From Acidobacteria bacterium RIFCSPLOWO2_12_FULL_66_21 (GTDB taxonomy: Bacteria; Acidobacteriota; Vicinamibacteria; Vicinamibacterales; 2-12-FULL-66-21): a stretch of DNA of 64,000 nt. Below, one piece after another: positions 23,567 to 31,580 of this stretch. The notes under the pieces are model-generated. The model saw nothing but the letters and a program-made list of their open reading frames with translations, was not told where the DNA came from and searched no databases. The translations under genes were made by a program, and so were the position numbers. The stretch covers positions 16,010 through 80,009 of the forward strand of contig MELC01000022.1 of assembly GCA_001767455.1 (NCBI GenBank), in the 5' to 3' direction. The number at the start of each line of letters is the position of its first letter. Positions within the stretch are counted from its first letter, which is position 1.

Positions 23567-23860
23567 TTATTCAGTGCTGAAGGCCTTGCGCGCATGTTGC
23601 GAGTGCAGCTCGTGCAGCAGGCGCATGACGTTGTAGGCGCTCATCTCGACGAGCACCGACGTCACATAGGTGTGCACATCGTCGCTCAGGAGCGGCTCGA
23701 GCTGCTTCATCGCCGCGGTGACGCGCTCCTCCTGCCGCTTCAGCTCCTCGCGCGAGACGACGCCGTCCTCCATCGCGTTTGTGAAGGATTCGAGCTTGGT
23801 GATCTGCTCCTGGATCACGGGATGCTCCGCCCTCTCGTCGAACCAGCTCGTTCGCGCCAC
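23567..23860 (-). CDS. Small helical protein, last gene of the AAA/PspA/ABC operon
   Basis: The product is 97 residues. GTG 23860 has AAGGAGG seven bases upstream, better than the ATG in the ORF track. The sequence is highly helical (IQEQITKLESFTNAMEDGVVSREELKRQEERVTAAMKQL...), with a heptad-like N-terminal half and a second helix (TYVTSVLVEMSAYNVMRLLHEL). It starts 18 bases after the AAA ATPase stop, so it is translationally linked. I do not recognise a family; an adaptor or cofactor for the ATPase is plausible from position. Confidence 0.75.
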   Translation of the reverse strand: MARTSWFDERAEHPVIQEQITKLESFTNAMEDGVVSREELKRQEERVTAAMKQLEPLLSDDVHTYVTSVLVEMSAYNVMRLLHELHSQHARKAFSTE

Positions 23861-23878
23861 GTGCCGCCTCCTTGTCAT

Positions 23879-25651
23879 TCAGAGTGCGTTGACCAGTTGT
23901 TTGATCGCCGTCAGCCGCTCCTGCAGCTTCGCGCGGCCGCCGTCCGCGTCGATGCGCGCTGCAATCTGCGGCGGCAGGAACTGGCGATCCGTGCACTCGA
24001 GGATCGCCGCCGTCTCCTGCAGATCCCGCTCGAGCCCCTGCGTGGACGGCATGAACTCCGCCACGACCTGCGCCAGCGCCTCGCGCGTGATGTGATCGCT
24101 TCCCGCGATCAGCGACCGCCGCCACGCGCGGCCGACCATGCCCTCGATGTCCGCTCCCGACAGGTGCCCGCGCTGCGGGATCGGCGGCACGTCTTCCGGC
24201 GCGAGCCGCGATCCCATCTTGCCCGCCAGGATCAGGAACATCTTCCTGATCTCCTCGTCGTCGGTCGGGTAGAAGAGCGGAATGTGCACCTCCGCGCGTC
24301 CCTGGCGCTTGAGGTCGATCGGCAGCAGATCGGGGCGCGCCGTCAGCAGCATCCAGATGATCTGGCCGCGATACCGGGTGTCGCCCATCTGCGCCGCGAT
24401 CATCCCGAACACGCGGCTCGACGTGCCGGAGTCCCCTTCCGCCTCGCGGCTCCCCAGCGCCGCGTCCGCTTCGTCGACGACGACGACGACGGGCCCCATC
24501 GCGCGCAGCACCGCGAGCACGCGCTCGAGGTTCCCTTCGGTCTCGCCGACGTACTTCGACCTGAAGTTCTTGAGGACGACGCAGGGAACGCCGATCTCGC
24601 CGCTGAGGCACTGCGCGATGAACGACTTCCCCGTCCCGACCGGCCCGCAAATCAGATATCCCATCGGCAGGCTGTCGAGCGCGCCGCGCTTGAGCAGCGC
24701 CGCGTCCTCTCGCAGCCGCGCCTTGGCCGCCTCGTGGCCGACGACCGTGTCGAGCGTCCACTTCGGCTCGATGAACTCCAGCAGCCCGTGGCACTGGCGC
24801 TCGAGCAGCCGCTTCTTCAGCGCGCGGAACACGACCGCGTCGAGTCGTCGCCCGGCCTCCCTCGCGGACCGGACGAGGACGTTGAGGTCCGTGAGCGAGA
24901 TGCCCGCGGTCAGCTTCGCCAGCTCGGTCGCGTTGAAGTCCGAGAATCGCTGGAGCTCCTCAGCGGGCACCGTCGTCTCGAGAAACGCGTGGCGCTCCCG
25001 CTCGGCGGGCAACGGCACCTCGATGGAGGCGACGTGCGGGTTGCCGGTCAGACGATCGTTCAGGTCCACGAGCTTCTCGTCGATCAGCACGAACGCCATG
25101 TTCAAGCGCTTGACGTGCGGGCTCATCGCCCAGTTCAGCATCGTCACGAGCTGCGACGAGGACTGGAGGCTGAGCCGGCCGGGCTCGCCCGACGGGAACA
25201 CGTAGGACGCCTGGTCCATGATGAGGGCGAGGCTCAGGCGATCGTCCTGCGGCGCCATGATGTTGTTGCGGACGAACCGGTCGATCGCGGCAAACGTCGC
25301 GGCAGGATCCTTGGACAGCGCGCTGAGATCGCCGACCTTGCGGTTGGCGAGCGGCACGATCTCCTTCAGCCGCTTCTCGTCGCGCCCCGCGAAGGCGCGA
25401 AGGCCCTGGCCGAGGTCGTAGTGCAGCACGATCGACCAGCGCCCGAACACCTGCTCGGTGAGGAACTCGGCGAGACTGCCGGTCCGCGCCGGCTCGGATT
25501 CGCTGATCTTGAAGAGGTCGTAGGTGTTGCCATGGAGGATGAACGCCGACGTGGTGCCGGAGAAATACAGGTCCGCGAGCTGCGACGCCCACGCGGGAAA
25601 CCACTCAGGGAGCGTCTCCGGACGCCGGGGCGTGGCCGACTCAGGCGTCAT
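23879..25651 (-). CDS. Classic-clade AAA ATPase with degenerate N-terminal AAA module
   Basis: The product is 590 residues. The C-terminal module is complete: Walker A 'GPVGTGKS' (336-343), substrate-pore loop 'KYVGETEGN' (from 367), Walker B 'VVVVDEADAA' (389-398) and an arginine-finger region 'DLKRQGRAEV'. This layout matches Vps4/katanin/Cdc48-type remodellers rather than MoxR or ClpX types. Residues about 30-215 resemble a first AAA domain lacking Walker A ('ILHGNTYDLF', 'LALIMDQASYVF', 'AFVLIDEKLVDLNDRL'). Its 5' end overlaps the membrane coiled-coil gene by 11 bases. It is likely a hexameric cytoplasmic remodeller acting on a partner in this operon; the PspA-like protein is the obvious candidate. 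Confidence 0.85.
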   Translation of the reverse strand: MTPESATPRRPETLPEWFPAWASQLADLYFSGTTSAFILHGNTYDLFKISESEPARTGSLAEFLTEQVFGRWSIVLHYDLGQGLRAFAGRDEKRLKEIVPLANRKVGDLSALSKDPAATFAAIDRFVRNNIMAPQDDRLSLALIMDQASYVFPSGEPGRLSLQSSSQLVTMLNWAMSPHVKRLNMAFVLIDEKLVDLNDRLTGNPHVASIEVPLPAERERHAFLETTVPAEELQRFSDFNATELAKLTAGISLTDLNVLVRSAREAGRRLDAVVFRALKKRLLERQCHGLLEFIEPKWTLDTVVGHEAAKARLREDAALLKRGALDSLPMGYLICGPVGTGKSFIAQCLSGEIGVPCVVLKNFRSKYVGETEGNLERVLAVLRAMGPVVVVVDEADAALGSREAEGDSGTSSRVFGMIAAQMGDTRYRGQIIWMLLTARPDLLPIDLKRQGRAEVHIPLFYPTDDEEIRKMFLILAGKMGSRLAPEDVPPIPQRGHLSGADIEGMVGRAWRRSLIAGSDHITREALAQVVAEFMPSTQGLERDLQETAAILECTDRQFLPPQIAARIDADGGRAKLQERLTAIKQLVNAL

Positions 25652-26567
25652 TGCGGAGGACCTCGCGGAGATCGGTCTCGAGGATCGCCGGCGGCTCTTC
25701 GAGCTGGTCCGCGAGTCCCGTCAGGTGCTGCAGCTCGCTGACCGCCTTTTCCGTCTGCCGCATGCTCTCGGCGGCCGAATCGACCTGGCTGCTGAGGAAA
25801 TCCGGATCCTGGCGATTGACGGCCATTTCGGCGAGCGCCTGGATCTTCCCCTCGATGCGATCCAGCTCGATCGACACGAACTCGCCGTTCTTCTTCGCGC
25901 GCGCGAAGTTGTCGAGCCGCAGCTCCGCCATCGCGATGCTGTCCTGGAGCGACCGCACGATCCGCTCGTCGCCCCCCGTCTGCGCGGCGGCGAAGTTCTT
26001 CCTGAGCTCCTCCAGCCGCGACGTGATGTCCTGCCCGTCCATGCTCTGTAGGAACCGATCGAGCGCGGTCTTCGACACGAGCAGGCGAAGGAACAGCCAG
26101 AGCAGCCGATCGAGTCCCGGCGTGCGGATCTCCTCCGCCGAGTTCGCCTGGACGCCGGTCGCGCCGCGCACGCCCGCCGCGATGCCGCGCATGTCCACGC
26201 ACCGGGCGTGCAGCCGCTCGAACCGGCGGCGCGCGTCCAGCGGCAGTCCGCCCAGCATCGTGACGAGCGAGACCGGCGGCGCGGCCGGCGCCTGGTCGTC
26301 GCCGCCTCCCGTCCGAGCCGCATGCGCCTTCGCATCGATGGCCGCGCGGAACCGCGGCACCGAGATCAACCCGGTCAGGTACGTGACTTCTCCAGCCGCC
26401 ACGAGCGGGAGCAGCACCGGCGCGAGCGGCGTCAGCGCGGCCGCGGCCGTGCCGCCGACAAAGAACAGCAGGTTCCAGCGGAAGAGGAACGCCTCCCGCA
26501 GGTACTCCTTGAGGCCGGCGCCTTCCGGCGTGGTCCCTGCCGTTGTTCCGAGAGGATCTCTGTTCAT
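25641..26567 (-). CDS. Membrane-anchored coiled-coil protein of unknown function
   Basis: The product is 308 residues. Residues about 29-70 form a hairpin of two membrane helices (RWNLLFFVGGTAAAALTPLAP; VLLPLVAAGEVTYLTGLISV). A Gly/Pro linker and a long helical cytoplasmic region follow (TALDRFLQSMDGQDITSRLEELRK ... ELRLDNFARAKKNGEFVSIEL ... QVDSAAESMRQTEKAVSELQ). It is sandwiched between the ABC ATPase gene and the AAA ATPase gene, which it overlaps. It may be the membrane receptor or docking factor of the AAA enzyme. No known family is recognised. Confidence 0.8.
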   Translation of the reverse strand: MNRDPLGTTAGTTPEGAGLKEYLREAFLFRWNLLFFVGGTAAAALTPLAPVLLPLVAAGEVTYLTGLISVPRFRAAIDAKAHAARTGGGDDQAPAAPPVSLVTMLGGLPLDARRRFERLHARCVDMRGIAAGVRGATGVQANSAEEIRTPGLDRLLWLFLRLLVSKTALDRFLQSMDGQDITSRLEELRKNFAAAQTGGDERIVRSLQDSIAMAELRLDNFARAKKNGEFVSIELDRIEGKIQALAEMAVNRQDPDFLSSQVDSAAESMRQTEKAVSELQHLTGLADQLEEPPAILETDLREVLRNDA

Positions 26568-26635: not shown

Positions 26636-27433
26636 TCAATCTCCGGCCTTGGTGGACGTTTCGAGCTTCTCGATCAAATCCCGGATCTCGAACACCAGAT
26701 CGACGAACGATCGCTCGCGCTGCATCTCCTTCGGCGGCCGATCGGGGGGCGGCACCTGCATTTCCCGCAGGATGGTCCCCGGCGCCGACGAGAACACGTA
26801 CACGCGGTCACCAAGGTACACCGCTTCCTCGATCGAGTGTGTCACGAAGAACACGGTCGCCTGCGCTTCCCGCCACAGGTTGACGAGCAGCTCCTGCATG
26901 TTCAGGCGCGTCGTCGGATCGAGCGCGCCGAACGGCTCGTCCATCAAGATGATGCGCGGCGAGAGGATCAGCGTGCGCGCGATGGCCACCCGCTGGCGCA
27001 TGCCGCCGGACAGCTCGTGGGGATACTTCGGCGCGTCGCGCGTGATGTCGAGGCCGACCTTCGCGATCCACTCGCGGGCGCGCTCCCGCCGCTCCTTCGC
27101 CGCCACGCCGCGGCACTCGAGGCCGAACGCGACGTTGTCCTGCACCGTGCGGTTGTCGAACGACGTGTAGTCCTGGAAGACCATGCTGCGATCGGAGCCC
27201 GGGGGCCCGACCGGCTTGTCGGCGACGAGAACGGCTCCCTCGCTGGCCGGGTGGTGCGGCGGCAGCCCCGCGATGAGCCGCAGCACGGTGGACTTGCCGC
27301 AACCCGACGGCCCGAGGATCGCGATGAACTCCCCCTTGCCGGGGCGGTCGTCGACGGTGAAGTTGACGTCGCGGATCACCGTCGTCGCGCCGAAGCGCTT
27401 CGTCACGTTCTGGAACTGGACGACGTTCGGCAT
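26636..27433 (-). CDS. ABC transporter ATP-binding protein (NitT/TauT type)
   Basis: The product is 265 residues. Walker A 'GPSGCGKST', Q-loop 'MVFQDYTSFDNRTV', signature 'LSGGMRQRVAIARTL', Walker B 'IILMDEPFGALD' and H-loop 'VFFVTHSIEEA' are all present and match SsuB/TauB/NrtD-type importers. The start ATG shares one base with the permease stop (TGATG). The ORF-track N-terminal extension is a frame artefact. The C-terminal extension (PPPDRPPKEMQRERSFVDLVFEI) is family-typical. It powers the permease encoded just upstream. Confidence 0.93.
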   Translation of the reverse strand: MPNVVQFQNVTKRFGATTVIRDVNFTVDDRPGKGEFIAILGPSGCGKSTVLRLIAGLPPHHPASEGAVLVADKPVGPPGSDRSMVFQDYTSFDNRTVQDNVAFGLECRGVAAKERRERAREWIAKVGLDITRDAPKYPHELSGGMRQRVAIARTLILSPRIILMDEPFGALDPTTRLNMQELLVNLWREAQATVFFVTHSIEEAVYLGDRVYVFSSAPGTILREMQVPPPDRPPKEMQRERSFVDLVFEIRDLIEKLETSTKAGD

Positions 27434-28254
27434 CACTCCTCGACGACGCGGTAGGGGAACAGGCCGCGCTGGAACCAGAAGAGGAGGCGGTCGATGCCAA
27501 AGGCCAGCAGCCCGATGATGAGCAGGATCAGGATGATGTGCTCGGACAGTCCGCGGCGCTGGCTCGTCATCAGCAGGTAGCCGAGGCCGTGCTTCGCGTT
27601 GATCAGCTCGGCGAGCATGATGTAGCCGAACGCGAGGCCGAACAGGTGGCGCAGGCTGTTGTAGATGTCGGGCAGCGCCATCGGGACGAGCACCTTCCGC
27701 ACGATCTGCGAGGAGCTGGCGCCGAGGGTCTGCGCGGTTTCGACGTAGCGGTCCGGCACCGCCGTGATCGCGGCCACGACGTCCGAGTACACGAACGGCA
27801 CGCACGCGATGAAGATGAACATCACCTTCTGCGTCTCGTCGATGCCGAACCAGAGAATGGTGAGCGGGATCAGCGCGGCGACCGGGAGGTTCCGGCCGAA
27901 GAGCGCGAGCGGCGCGCCGGCCGCCTGCACGACGCGCCACGAACCGGCGACGATGCCGATGGGGATCCCGACGGCGGCGGCAAGCCCGAAGCCCACGAGG
28001 ACGCGTTGGAGCGTCGCCGCGATGCTCTCGACGAGGCCGCGGTCCTTCCACAGCGACGGAAAGCTGCGGAACACCTCGAGCGGGCTCGGCAGGATCACCG
28101 GAGACACGAAGCGGTTTTCAGGGCTGGCGCCGTAGGTCGCGAGCCACCAGAGCAGGAGTACGAAGGCCACTCCGCCCACGCCGACGAGCCGCCGCGCGGT
28201 CGGCCTCGGCGCGACCCTGAGCGCAAACAGCGCCCGTTTCGGTGCGGCGGCCAT
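27433..28254 (-). CDS. ABC transporter permease (NitT/TauT type)
   Basis: The product is 273 residues with six membrane helices. The EAA-loop region reads 'YVETAQTLGASSSQIVRKVLVPMALPDIYNSLR', and 'LPVAALIPLTILWFGIDETQKVMFIF' is typical of SsuC/TauC permeases. It forms a homodimeric channel for an anion or small organic substrate. It is directly abutted by the substrate-binding-protein gene (stop at 28255, start at 28254) and coupled to the ATPase gene. Confidence 0.93.
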   Translation of the reverse strand: MAAAPKRALFALRVAPRPTARRLVGVGGVAFVLLLWWLATYGASPENRFVSPVILPSPLEVFRSFPSLWKDRGLVESIAATLQRVLVGFGLAAAVGIPIGIVAGSWRVVQAAGAPLALFGRNLPVAALIPLTILWFGIDETQKVMFIFIACVPFVYSDVVAAITAVPDRYVETAQTLGASSSQIVRKVLVPMALPDIYNSLRHLFGLAFGYIMLAELINAKHGLGYLLMTSQRRGLSEHIILILLIIGLLAFGIDRLLFWFQRGLFPYRVVEE

Positions 28255-29982
28255 CTACTTGGGGGCCGTCGCCTCCGCCGGATACACCTTGATCTCGACG
28301 CGGCGGTTCTTCGCGTGGTTCTCCGGATCGGACGGATCGGCGGGACGATCCCACCCCATGCCCGCCGTCGAGAACTGGTTGGGCTGCAGCGACGAGAACT
28401 TGCGCACGATTGCTTCCTTCACGGCGTTCGCGCGGTTCAGCGACAGCTCCTGCACGAGGCTCTTCGGCACCTGGGCCTTCATCGACCCGTCGGTGTGCCC
28501 TTCGATCACGATGCGCGCCGCGCCGTACTGGCCGGCGAGCTTGCCGACCTCCTCGACGACGAACCCGACGTTCGGATCGTAGAGCTCCTCGACTTCCCTC
28601 CCCTCCGCGTTGCGCGTGATCTTCTTGGTGAGGTCCCAGGAGTTCGGGAAGAAGTGGATGACGACCGTCTTCGTCAGGATCTCGGTGCTCTCCCCCTGGA
28701 TCGACCCCGCGGCCGACGGCGCGAACTGGATGTCGTACTCGTTCTTCTGCGAGGCGTACTTCTGCTCGCTCGCGAGCTTCTGGATGATCGAGAAGTCCAT
28801 CACCTGGTCGAACGGCGTCTGCTGCGTGACGGCGTTGATCTTCTTGTAGAGGAAGTACGCGGTGTTCCAGGTCCGCTCGAAGTTGGTCGGGTTGTTCTGG
28901 TTCAGGAAGAACTCGCGGTTCTCCGCGTAATTGGTCGAGTGCGCGTCGCCGAGCATCCCGAGCGTGTCGCTCTCGGGGATCGAGTAGCCGGCGGCCATCA
29001 GCTTCGCGACCTTCTGCCGGTTCTCCTGCGTCTTCAGGTCGATCATCGCGTCGAAAATGCCGCGGACGATCCCTTCCATGATGTCCGGGTTGTCCTTCGC
29101 GAAGTCCGCCCGCGCGAACCAGATGTCGGCGATCAGCTTGTTCGCGGTGGCCGTCGTGACGATCAGCTTGTTGCCGCGGACCTTCTCGAGGTTGTAGATG
29201 TCGGGCGCCCAGGTGACGCATCCGGCGAGCCGCTTGTCGGCGTTGAACGCGGCGGCGGCCTGGAAGGCGTCCTGCGTGAACTTGAAGTCCACTTCGGCCG
29301 GCTGCACGCCGGCGTTGATCAGCGCGTTGAGCACGAAAAAGTGCGACGGCGAGTTCTGCGCGAGCACCACCGTCTTCCCGCGCAGCTCCGCCATCGTCTT
29401 GATCGCATCGCGGACGACGATGCCGTCGCCGCCGTTCGACCAGTCGACCTGCTGGTAGACGCGCGGCATGACGCGCGAGTCCTTGCGCAGCCCCTCGAGG
29501 AACAGCGGCACCATGTCGAGCGTGGCCCAGCCGACGTGCAGGTTGCCCGCCGCATACGCATCGCGCATCGCGATCGGGTCGTCGATCAGGACCAGCTCGA
29601 CCTTGAAGTCCTTGCCCGAGGGGCTCTTCCACAACTTGCCCGGCTTGAACCCGTTGTTCGCGTAGATAATCGGGCCCCAGCCCGCCCACACGTTGATGGC
29701 GAAGCGGACGGTGCGATCCGCCATCGCCGTGTAGTTCGAGATGCCCTTGACCTCGGGCAGCTTCGCCGCGGCGACGTAGTTGTATTCCTTGACCGTCGTG
29801 ATGCCCGAGGTGTCCGGCGCCTCGGCGCCCCCCTTCATCTGCTTCAGCTCTTCCTGAGAGAAGGTGCCGGAATCCCGCTTCGGCCCGATCGCGCCGTACC
29901 GCCAGAGCGCGAGGCCGACGAGCGCGAGGACGACGACGAGCACTGCGACGTAGAACGCTGGTTTCGGCTGTCCGTTCGCCAT
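28255..29982 (-). CDS. ABC substrate-binding protein fused to an OmpA peptidoglycan-binding domain
   Basis: The product is 575 residues. Residues about 8-28 are an uncleaved-looking membrane anchor (FYVAVLVVVLALVGLALWRYG). Residues about 85-400 form an NMT1/TauA-type binding domain ('RFAINVWAGWGPIIYANNGF', 'NLHVGWATLDMVPLFLEGL', 'GKTVVLAQNSPSHFF'). The C-terminus (about 455-570) is an OmpA-like domain with 'IVIEGHTDGS' (from 491), 'LSLNRANAVKEAIV' and 'NRRVEIKV', including the Asp/Arg pair that grips diaminopimelate. Ordinary binding proteins roam free or are lipid-anchored; this one could bridge inner membrane and cell wall. The ligand is unknown. Confidence 0.9.
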   Translation of the reverse strand: MANGQPKPAFYVAVLVVVLALVGLALWRYGAIGPKRDSGTFSQEELKQMKGGAEAPDTSGITTVKEYNYVAAAKLPEVKGISNYTAMADRTVRFAINVWAGWGPIIYANNGFKPGKLWKSPSGKDFKVELVLIDDPIAMRDAYAAGNLHVGWATLDMVPLFLEGLRKDSRVMPRVYQQVDWSNGGDGIVVRDAIKTMAELRGKTVVLAQNSPSHFFVLNALINAGVQPAEVDFKFTQDAFQAAAAFNADKRLAGCVTWAPDIYNLEKVRGNKLIVTTATANKLIADIWFARADFAKDNPDIMEGIVRGIFDAMIDLKTQENRQKVAKLMAAGYSIPESDTLGMLGDAHSTNYAENREFFLNQNNPTNFERTWNTAYFLYKKINAVTQQTPFDQVMDFSIIQKLASEQKYASQKNEYDIQFAPSAAGSIQGESTEILTKTVVIHFFPNSWDLTKKITRNAEGREVEELYDPNVGFVVEEVGKLAGQYGAARIVIEGHTDGSMKAQVPKSLVQELSLNRANAVKEAIVRKFSSLQPNQFSTAGMGWDRPADPSDPENHAKNRRVEIKVYPAEATAPK

Positions 29983-30003: not shown

Positions 30004-30768
30004 TTAAGAATTCGTCTGTTTCTCGGCCACCGGCTCGGTGGTCGCGGGACCGAGGTCCTTCGCCGTCTGCGCGACCGGCGTGGTTTCGGGAGACTTGAGG
30101 CCGAGCTCCACCTCGAAGTCCGTGAGCGCCTGCTCGGCGAGCTGCGCCTGCATGCGCTCCTCGGCATCGATCGCGGCGATGCCTTTGGCCGAGAGGTCCG
30201 CCGCGACGCGCACCTTGCCGCGGTTCTGATCGATCTTCTGCTGGATGACGGCCTCGATCTCGCCGAAGTCGGTCGTGAGGTTCATGTCGAAGGTTTCCGA
30301 CAGCTTGGCGATCTCCGCCTCGGCGCTGCTCATCTTCAGCTCGGCGTCGTACTTCTGGATCTTGTCGCGCAGCTCGATCAGCTTCTCGTTGGCGTGCTGG
30401 ATCTTCTTCAGGCTGTTGCCGTAGGCGGTCTCGTGCATCTGGAGCTGCTGCTCGTTCGCGGCGTGCTCCGTCTTGGCTTTCTGCAGCTCCAGGGCGAACT
30501 TGGCCGCCGTCACGCGATCTCCGGCCTTGAGGTACGCCTTCGTCTCCGCCTCGAGCTTCTGCACGTGCGAGCGGTTGGCCTGGACCTGGCGCGTGACGCG
30601 CTCGACGAGCCCGCGATATTGCTCGAGGCCGACGCGGCCTTCCTTCAGCTGGGCGACCGCCTGGTCGTACTCGTAGCGCATCTGCGCGACGGGATCCGCT
30701 TCCCAGAAGAGGTTGGCGACCTTGTTGATCTGCGCCATCATCGCGGACCAGAACTTGTGGAGGATCAC
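30004..30768 (-). CDS. PspA/IM30-like coiled-coil protein (ESCRT-III superfamily candidate)
   Basis: The product is 254 residues, almost entirely helical. An amphipathic N-terminus (FWSAMMAQINKVANLFW) precedes a long hairpin with PspA spacing: 'ADPVAQMRYEYDQAVAQL', 'LEAETKAYLKAGDRVTAAKFALEL', 'LKKIQHANEKLIELRDKIQKYDAEL'. The 'A..A..L..GDR..A..AL.LQ' turn region corresponds to the PspA helix alpha2-alpha3 junction. A variable Thr/Pro/Glu tail ends the protein. PspA family proteins polymerise on and remodel stressed inner membrane. Its operon includes a Vps4-like AAA ATPase. Assignment is by pattern only, so moderate. Confidence 0.7.
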   Translation of the reverse strand: MILHKFWSAMMAQINKVANLFWEADPVAQMRYEYDQAVAQLKEGRVGLEQYRGLVERVTRQVQANRSHVQKLEAETKAYLKAGDRVTAAKFALELQKAKTEHAANEQQLQMHETAYGNSLKKIQHANEKLIELRDKIQKYDAELKMSSAEAEIAKLSETFDMNLTTDFGEIEAVIQQKIDQNRGKVRVAADLSAKGIAAIDAEERMQAQLAEQALTDFEVELGLKSPETTPVAQTAKDLGPATTEPVAEKQTNS

Positions 30769-30800: not shown

Positions 30801-31580
30801 TTACTTCTTGACGGGTTCCCGCTCGCCGGCGTCGATCGCCTCGGCCAGGATCTTGCCCTGGTAGACCCCTTCGAGCGCCGCCTGCAGCTCGCCGCCGGTG
30901 CCGGCGCCCAGGACGTCGCCGCCGACCTGCTTCAGGAACGCAAACTTCACGGGGCTCGTGTCGAACGCGACGAAGTAGATCTGCACCGCTCCTTCGCTCT
31001 TCCTGTAGATGTCCCGCGCCACGTCGTCCGGATCCCGGCCCGTCGTGTTGTCGCCGTCGGTCACGACCAGAATGTACTTCCGGAAGACGCCGGCTCGATA
31101 GAGCGCGGGCCGGGCCTCGCGCAGCGCGTCGCCGATGGCCGTGCCGCCGCCCGGTCGCGGCAGATTGGCCAGCGCGGCACGGACCGTCTCGCGATTGTAG
31201 CGTTGAATGGGCAGCAGCTCGCGCGGGCTGCTCGCGAAGCTGTAGATGCCGATTTTGATCGGAAAGTCAGGGCGCTTCGCCACGAACGCGTCGGTCGCGT
31301 TCAGCATCGTCTCCAGCGCCTCGCGCGCGATGACGTGCTTCGGCCGGCTCTCGCCGGGCGGGTCTTCCTTCATCGAGCCGGAGGTGTCGACGAGGATGGC
31401 GACCGCGGCACCCAGACCCTCTTCGACCTCCGCCTGATACGGCGCGGACTCGCTGGCGCGCGCCGGTGTCCCGGCCTGCTCGGGACGGTCGGCTCGCCGG
31501 CTGCTCTGATAGAGGCTGAAGGCGAGCACCGCCGCCAGCACCAGGTAGCCGACCGGGCTCCCTCCCCTACGCGTGCTCAT
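30801..31580 (-). CDS. Membrane-anchored von Willebrand factor A domain protein
   Basis: The product is 259 residues. One N-terminal membrane helix (VGYLVLAAVLAFSLYQ) is followed by a VWA domain. The MIDAS metal site is intact: 'ILVDTSGSM' (Asp65-Ser67-Ser69), the Thr in 'GGGTAIGDAL' and the Asp in 'LVVTDGDNTTG'. It therefore should bind Mg2+ and a protein partner with an acidic residue, in the periplasm if the helix is N-in. It is the promoter-proximal gene of the eight-gene operon. VWA plus AAA pairs are common, but usually the AAA is MoxR-type, unlike here. Confidence 0.88.
   Translation of the reverse strand: MSTRRGGSPVGYLVLAAVLAFSLYQSSRRADRPEQAGTPARASESAPYQAEVEEGLGAAVAILVDTSGSMKEDPPGESRPKHVIAREALETMLNATDAFVAKRPDFPIKIGIYSFASSPRELLPIQRYNRETVRAALANLPRPGGGTAIGDALREARPALYRAGVFRKYILVVTDGDNTTGRDPDDVARDIYRKSEGAVQIYFVAFDTSPVKFAFLKQVGGDVLGAGTGGELQAALEGVYQGKILAEAIDAGEREPVKK

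Follow-up and report, generated by a model that had tools for sequence, protein, structure and literature searches.

The window, by which we mean the whole 64,000-nucleotide stretch of DNA analyzed here, contains a cluster of eight genes that all lie on the minus strand. The first of these encodes a VWA-domain protein (30801..31580), a facultative member of the cluster. It is followed by genes for a PspA/IM30-like protein (30004..30768), a substrate-binding protein fused to an OmpA-type domain (28255..29982), a NitT/TauT-type ABC permease (27433..28254), an ABC ATPase of 265 amino acids (26636..27433), a membrane-anchored helical coiled-coil protein of 308 amino acids (25641..26567), an AAA ATPase with a Cdc48/Vps4-type C-terminal domain (23879..25651), and a small protein of 103 amino acids that is conserved in the cluster (23567..23878). 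The ATG of the permease gene comes immediately after the stop codon of the fusion, the ABC ATPase gene shares one base with the permease stop codon, and the AAA gene overlaps the coiled-coil gene. None of the window's own eight cluster members is a catabolic gene.

The operon, the fusion of a binding protein to an OmpA domain, and the idea of membrane remodeling were given in a few sentences by Ravi et al. 2024 (PMC11237479; example OGG56892.1). The genes listed in that passage encode PspA, a Snf7-type protein that has a membrane segment, an AAA ATPase whose N-terminal copy is inactive, an ABC ATPase, a permease, and the fusion, and it is by this described gene content that we liken that operon to the window cluster. 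The passage names neither the VWA-domain protein nor the small protein, both of which are present in the window cluster. The architecture is already published; what we add is residue conservation, a mapping of the ligand pocket, the distribution of the fusion, and the co-occurrence of its partners without linkage. Within the open-access literature, we found no experimental study of the fusion and no report beyond Ravi et al.

The fusion gene is a complete open reading frame of 575 codons with an ATG start. The first-pass annotation had described its product as an N-terminal membrane anchor, an NMT1/TauA-like domain, and a C-terminal OmpA domain, and all three parts are borne out. Hydropathy analysis identifies a single hydrophobic helix at residues 9-27 (29902..29958), which spans residues 8-28 in the structural model. 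Because this is the only such helix and there is no Cys near the N-terminus, the helix is predicted to be an uncleaved anchor and the protein not to be a lipoprotein. The OmpA-type peptidoglycan-binding domain (residues 439-568; 28279..28668) includes a match to the OmpA family PF00691 at residues 488-559 (41.7 bits against a Pfam cut-off of 27.2). OmpA-like domains are common, with eight further matches in the window's genome, and the fusion is single-copy within that genome.

The NitT/TauT-type substrate-binding domain (about residues 85-400; 28783..29730) scores under the Pfam cut-offs for NMT1 (18.8), NMT1_2 (19.9), and Phosphonate-bd (21.7). It matches TIGR03427 in NCBIfam (9.6e-22) and the solved TauA structure in the PDB (1.1e-10). 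Both TIGR03427 and SsuA_fam match all of the 25 aligned members, with the window protein scoring under both curated cut-offs. An AlphaFold2 model built from the 25-sequence alignment (mean pLDDT 78) is confident for the binding domain (most ten-residue blocks 83-96) and fair for the OmpA domain, with linkers of low confidence at residues 33-72 and 419-437. A Foldseek search with this model returned Escherichia coli TauA as the top match (E = 6.4e-19; TM 0.81, normalized to target length) and SsuA as the second. The architecture also supports the proposal, made in the first-pass annotation, that a ligand-binding domain would be held between the inner membrane and the cell wall.

We find that the presumptive wall-binding residues are strictly conserved. 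D498, R517, and the N559 R560 R561 stretch of the OmpA domain are invariant in 103/103 aligned homologs. The closest solved OmpA domain in a profile search is that of Omp38 (3td3), to which the Asp of the fusion's "GHTD" motif (D498) and the Arg of its "LSxxRA" motif (R517) align. We take their Omp38 counterparts to be its diaminopimelate-binding Asp and Arg pair. Whether the residues that bind diaminopimelate would align had been raised as a check on the OmpA assignment, and they do. The OmpA domain would dock the protein to peptidoglycan. MotB/PomB and ZorB follow the same plan, with a single membrane helix at the N-terminus and a wall-binding domain of OmpA type at the C-terminus. The fusion differs from these in having a binding domain between the helix and the OmpA domain, and no ion-channel partner was found in the cluster. 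The PADLOC matches of the fusion to ZorB span the OmpA domain only.

The binding pocket can be compared with that of TauA, in which Gln30, Gly61, Gly79, and Thr132 form the sulfonate site and Glu106, Thr132, and Asp205 the amine site (PMC6906117). In a mapping that rests on about 18% identity, TauA E106, D205, and W176 correspond to D186, D286, and W258 of the fusion, all three of which are invariant (103/103). Thr132 corresponds to P212, which is invariant in the 25-sequence alignment. A collapsed pocket had been named as a finding that would count against the original annotation; instead, the pocket is conserved. We suggest that the pocket is kept, given the invariance of D186, D286, and W258, and that its amine side is TauA-like while its sulfonate side is changed, given the Pro at the Thr132 position. 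The ligand is likely to be cationic or amine-bearing. The fusion does not have the taurine specificity set E106/T132/D205 of TauA, since the acids are kept and T132 is replaced by P212, and identification of the fusion as a taurine-binding protein was therefore set aside. An equivalent of TauA Gly79 was dropped from the comparison, being D156 by single-sequence alignment and T154 by profile alignment. More broadly, the cluster resembles the TauABC/SsuABC (NitT/TauT) importers in the fold and family of its binding domain, permease, and ATPase, and the fusion keeps acidic residues at both amine-binding positions of TauA as well as its pocket Trp. However, TauA is a soluble periplasmic protein, whereas the fusion is membrane-anchored, carries an OmpA domain, and has a conserved Pro in place of Thr132.

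Among the partner proteins, the ABC ATPase has kept its Walker A, Walker B, and LSGG signature motifs, and the permease retains the core residues of the EAA loop. The PspA-like protein falls just short of the PF04012 cut-off (32.5 bits against 33.9, residues 1-193), and its gene is the sole PF04012 match in the window's genome. A single AAA domain of the AAA protein is intact, with both Walker motifs (A and B) present in 23/23 sequences; Walker A is absent from the N-terminal half of the protein in these 23 sequences. Its best profile match is Cdc48-type, and the region upstream of the AAA domain aligns with the first part of double-AAA Cdc48-type proteins. This fits the "inactive N-terminal copy" mentioned in the passage in PMC11237479. 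A Pfam search of the AAA protein gave no match to an MIT domain.

The coiled-coil protein has a hydrophobic N-terminal part and long helices. It has no Pfam match and no consistent family match, yet it is conserved in the cluster across phyla. It may be one of the "Snf7 homologs with a TM segment" named in the PMC11237479 passage. An origin of the coiled-coil protein from PspA was considered but is not supported by profile comparison, which also gives no detectable relationship to ESCRT-III: hhalign against the cluster's PspA gave a probability of 0.2%, and the CdvB2 and BAR matches in a fold search were nonsignificant (E = 0.17-0.3). These neighbors (PspA, the AAA ATPase, and the coiled-coil protein), which the first-pass annotation did not take into account, are the more telling context and point to membrane maintenance or remodeling.

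Homologs of the fusion, mostly full length, occur in 37/396 genomes of the phylum, and a genome scan detected relatives at no fewer than 247 loci in other genomes (≥247). The best 80 of these come from Acidobacteriota, Myxococcota, Gemmatimonadota, Planctomycetota, Verrucomicrobiota, Pseudomonadota (Lysobacterales), Hydrogenedentota, and Hinthialibacterota, with phylum labels taken from record titles of bins that can hold stray contigs. The first-pass annotation had suggested looking for the same fusion next to NitT/TauT-type permeases in other phyla; it is found there, in about eight phyla. The fusion tree groups strongly by phylum (9 label changes against a minimum of 7). Because the tree follows the phyla, an old origin with mainly vertical inheritance is more probable than recent spread. 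Two other settings were rejected. Spread on plasmids was discounted, as none of the 78 plasmid records that match covers more than 80% of the query and the matches listed reach the binding domain only. An anti-phage defense island was likewise discarded, since the PADLOC matches are to generic OmpA, ABC, and AAA domains only and the tree mostly follows phyla. In two homologs (L013 and L014), the matched stretch contains one in-frame TAA, which might reflect only a shifted start or an effect at the end of the alignment.

We show that the neighbors of the fusion are widely retained. At loci with enough flanking sequence, the fusion is accompanied by the permease (67/73), the ABC ATPase (63/68), the coiled-coil protein (58/65), PspA (36/40), the AAA ATPase (31/40), the small protein (24/40), and, less often, the VWA-domain protein (7/40); these counts come from single-sequence queries and are lower bounds. 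The coiled-coil gene was detected in 34/396 genomes of the phylum: 32 of the 37 with the fusion and 2 of the 359 without it (Fisher's exact test, P = 1.7e-39, a test that ignores relatedness). The five phylum genomes with a fusion and no coiled-coil match have divergent fusions.

Co-occurrence also persists where linkage has been lost, and such lineages offer a cleaner test than the phylum-wide comparison. The operon is dispersed in three Lysobacterales genomes (L056, L061, and L072) and two Fuerstiella genomes (L109 and L110), in which neither the permease nor the ATPase gene adjoins the fusion. At the chosen thresholds, each of these five genomes has exactly one match for each of the permease, ATPase, coiled-coil, AAA, and PspA proteins, at several separate places. 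In G397, the permease and coiled-coil genes lie 80 kb apart on the same contig, so the dispersal is not merely a product of assembly fragmentation. As Lysobacterales and Fuerstiella are far apart in the tree, the operon has probably broken up at least twice. In Fuerstiella, the ATPase gene still adjoins the coiled-coil gene and PspA still adjoins AAA, a hint that the members of each pair are direct partners. That all six core genes (fusion, permease, ATPase, coiled-coil, AAA, and PspA) stay single-copy and present in these five genomes even when unlinked argues for one functional module.

We propose that the fusion serves a NitT/TauT-type ABC importer as its wall-docked binding subunit, and that this importer forms one module with PspA, the coiled-coil protein, and the AAA ATPase. 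On the sequence evidence, we give this proposal an even chance of being correct. Counting against it are how common OmpA-like domains are, the failure of profile comparison to relate the coiled-coil protein to PspA or ESCRT-III, the five genomes with a fusion and no coiled-coil match, the uncorrected relatedness in the phylum-wide test, and the low identity behind the TauA mapping. In this proposal, the anchor and the OmpA domain would hold the binding domain close to the inner membrane, with the permease within reach, and these two parts would also fix the transporter complex to peptidoglycan. The permease would receive a small ligand, probably one bearing an amine. Either ATP-driven transport or its binding state might then be coupled to the AAA ATPase's assembly or disassembly of PspA on the membrane, so that membrane maintenance would be positioned and timed at the wall.

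A stronger form of this idea, which we regard as rather unlikely, is a bacterial ESCRT-like machine. PspA, the coiled-coil protein, and the AAA ATPase would be docked to peptidoglycan, and the ligand state of the ABC importer would gate them, so that sensing of an amine derived from the wall or membrane would set the site and moment of remodeling. PspA belongs to the ESCRT-III superfamily (PMC10936438), and the cluster resembles archaeal and eukaryotic ESCRT-III with Vps4 in that PspA is likewise found with a Cdc48/Vps4-type AAA ATPase. The cluster differs from ESCRT-III/Vps4 in being bacterial, in including a transporter, and in having an AAA protein that lacks a detected MIT domain and is best matched by Cdc48-type proteins.

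The first-pass annotation had favored wall-related sensing or mechanical coupling over nutrient import. Such a role for the fusion is possible; the intact motifs of the ABC ATPase and permease leave room for ordinary import as well. The cluster might then be an ordinary NitT/TauT-type importer in which tethering only raises the local concentration of binding protein, with PspA and the AAA ATPase protecting the membrane uncoupled from transport. The invariant pocket residues favor this alternative along with those motifs. However, the six genes are kept as a single-copy set across phyla, also where they are not linked, an unusual pattern for a nutrient importer, and the window cluster itself contains no catabolic gene. 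We consider an ordinary importer just as improbable as the ESCRT-like machine.

Alternatively, the cluster might encode not a transporter but a sensor or a transmitter of force, with an FtsEX- or MacB-like ABC unit and a wall-bound, ligand-responsive protein that relays the state or distance of the wall to PspA and the AAA ATPase. In favor are the MotB-like plan, in which one helix and an OmpA domain are combined with flexible linkers (the low-confidence regions 33-72 and 419-437), and the stress-related neighbor genes. FtsEX and MacB permeases belong to a different family from the NitT/TauT-type permease. The permease here is of the importer family with its EAA-loop core residues kept, and the FtsEX/MacB permease family was not found in the cluster; we consider such a sensor or force transmitter a shade less probable still. 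Finally, nothing was found in favor of a functionless local gene fusion or assembly error, whose probability is negligible; conservation refutes it, as full-length homologs occur in about eight phyla and both domains have invariant residues.

The proposed wall-docked importer module bears on the question of how bacteria place and recycle PspA proteins, as ESCRT-III relatives, without Vps4. A wall-docked transporter linked with PspA and an AAA ATPase in a single-copy module across about eight phyla would provide a concrete and testable gene set.

The position of PspA relative to the other genes differs among clusters. In many planctomycetes, the PspA, AAA, and small protein genes are upstream of the fusion. 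In verrucomicrobial clusters, a divergent PspA-like gene lies after the coiled-coil gene, not before the fusion (L097:14790-15530 and L104:14649-15383).
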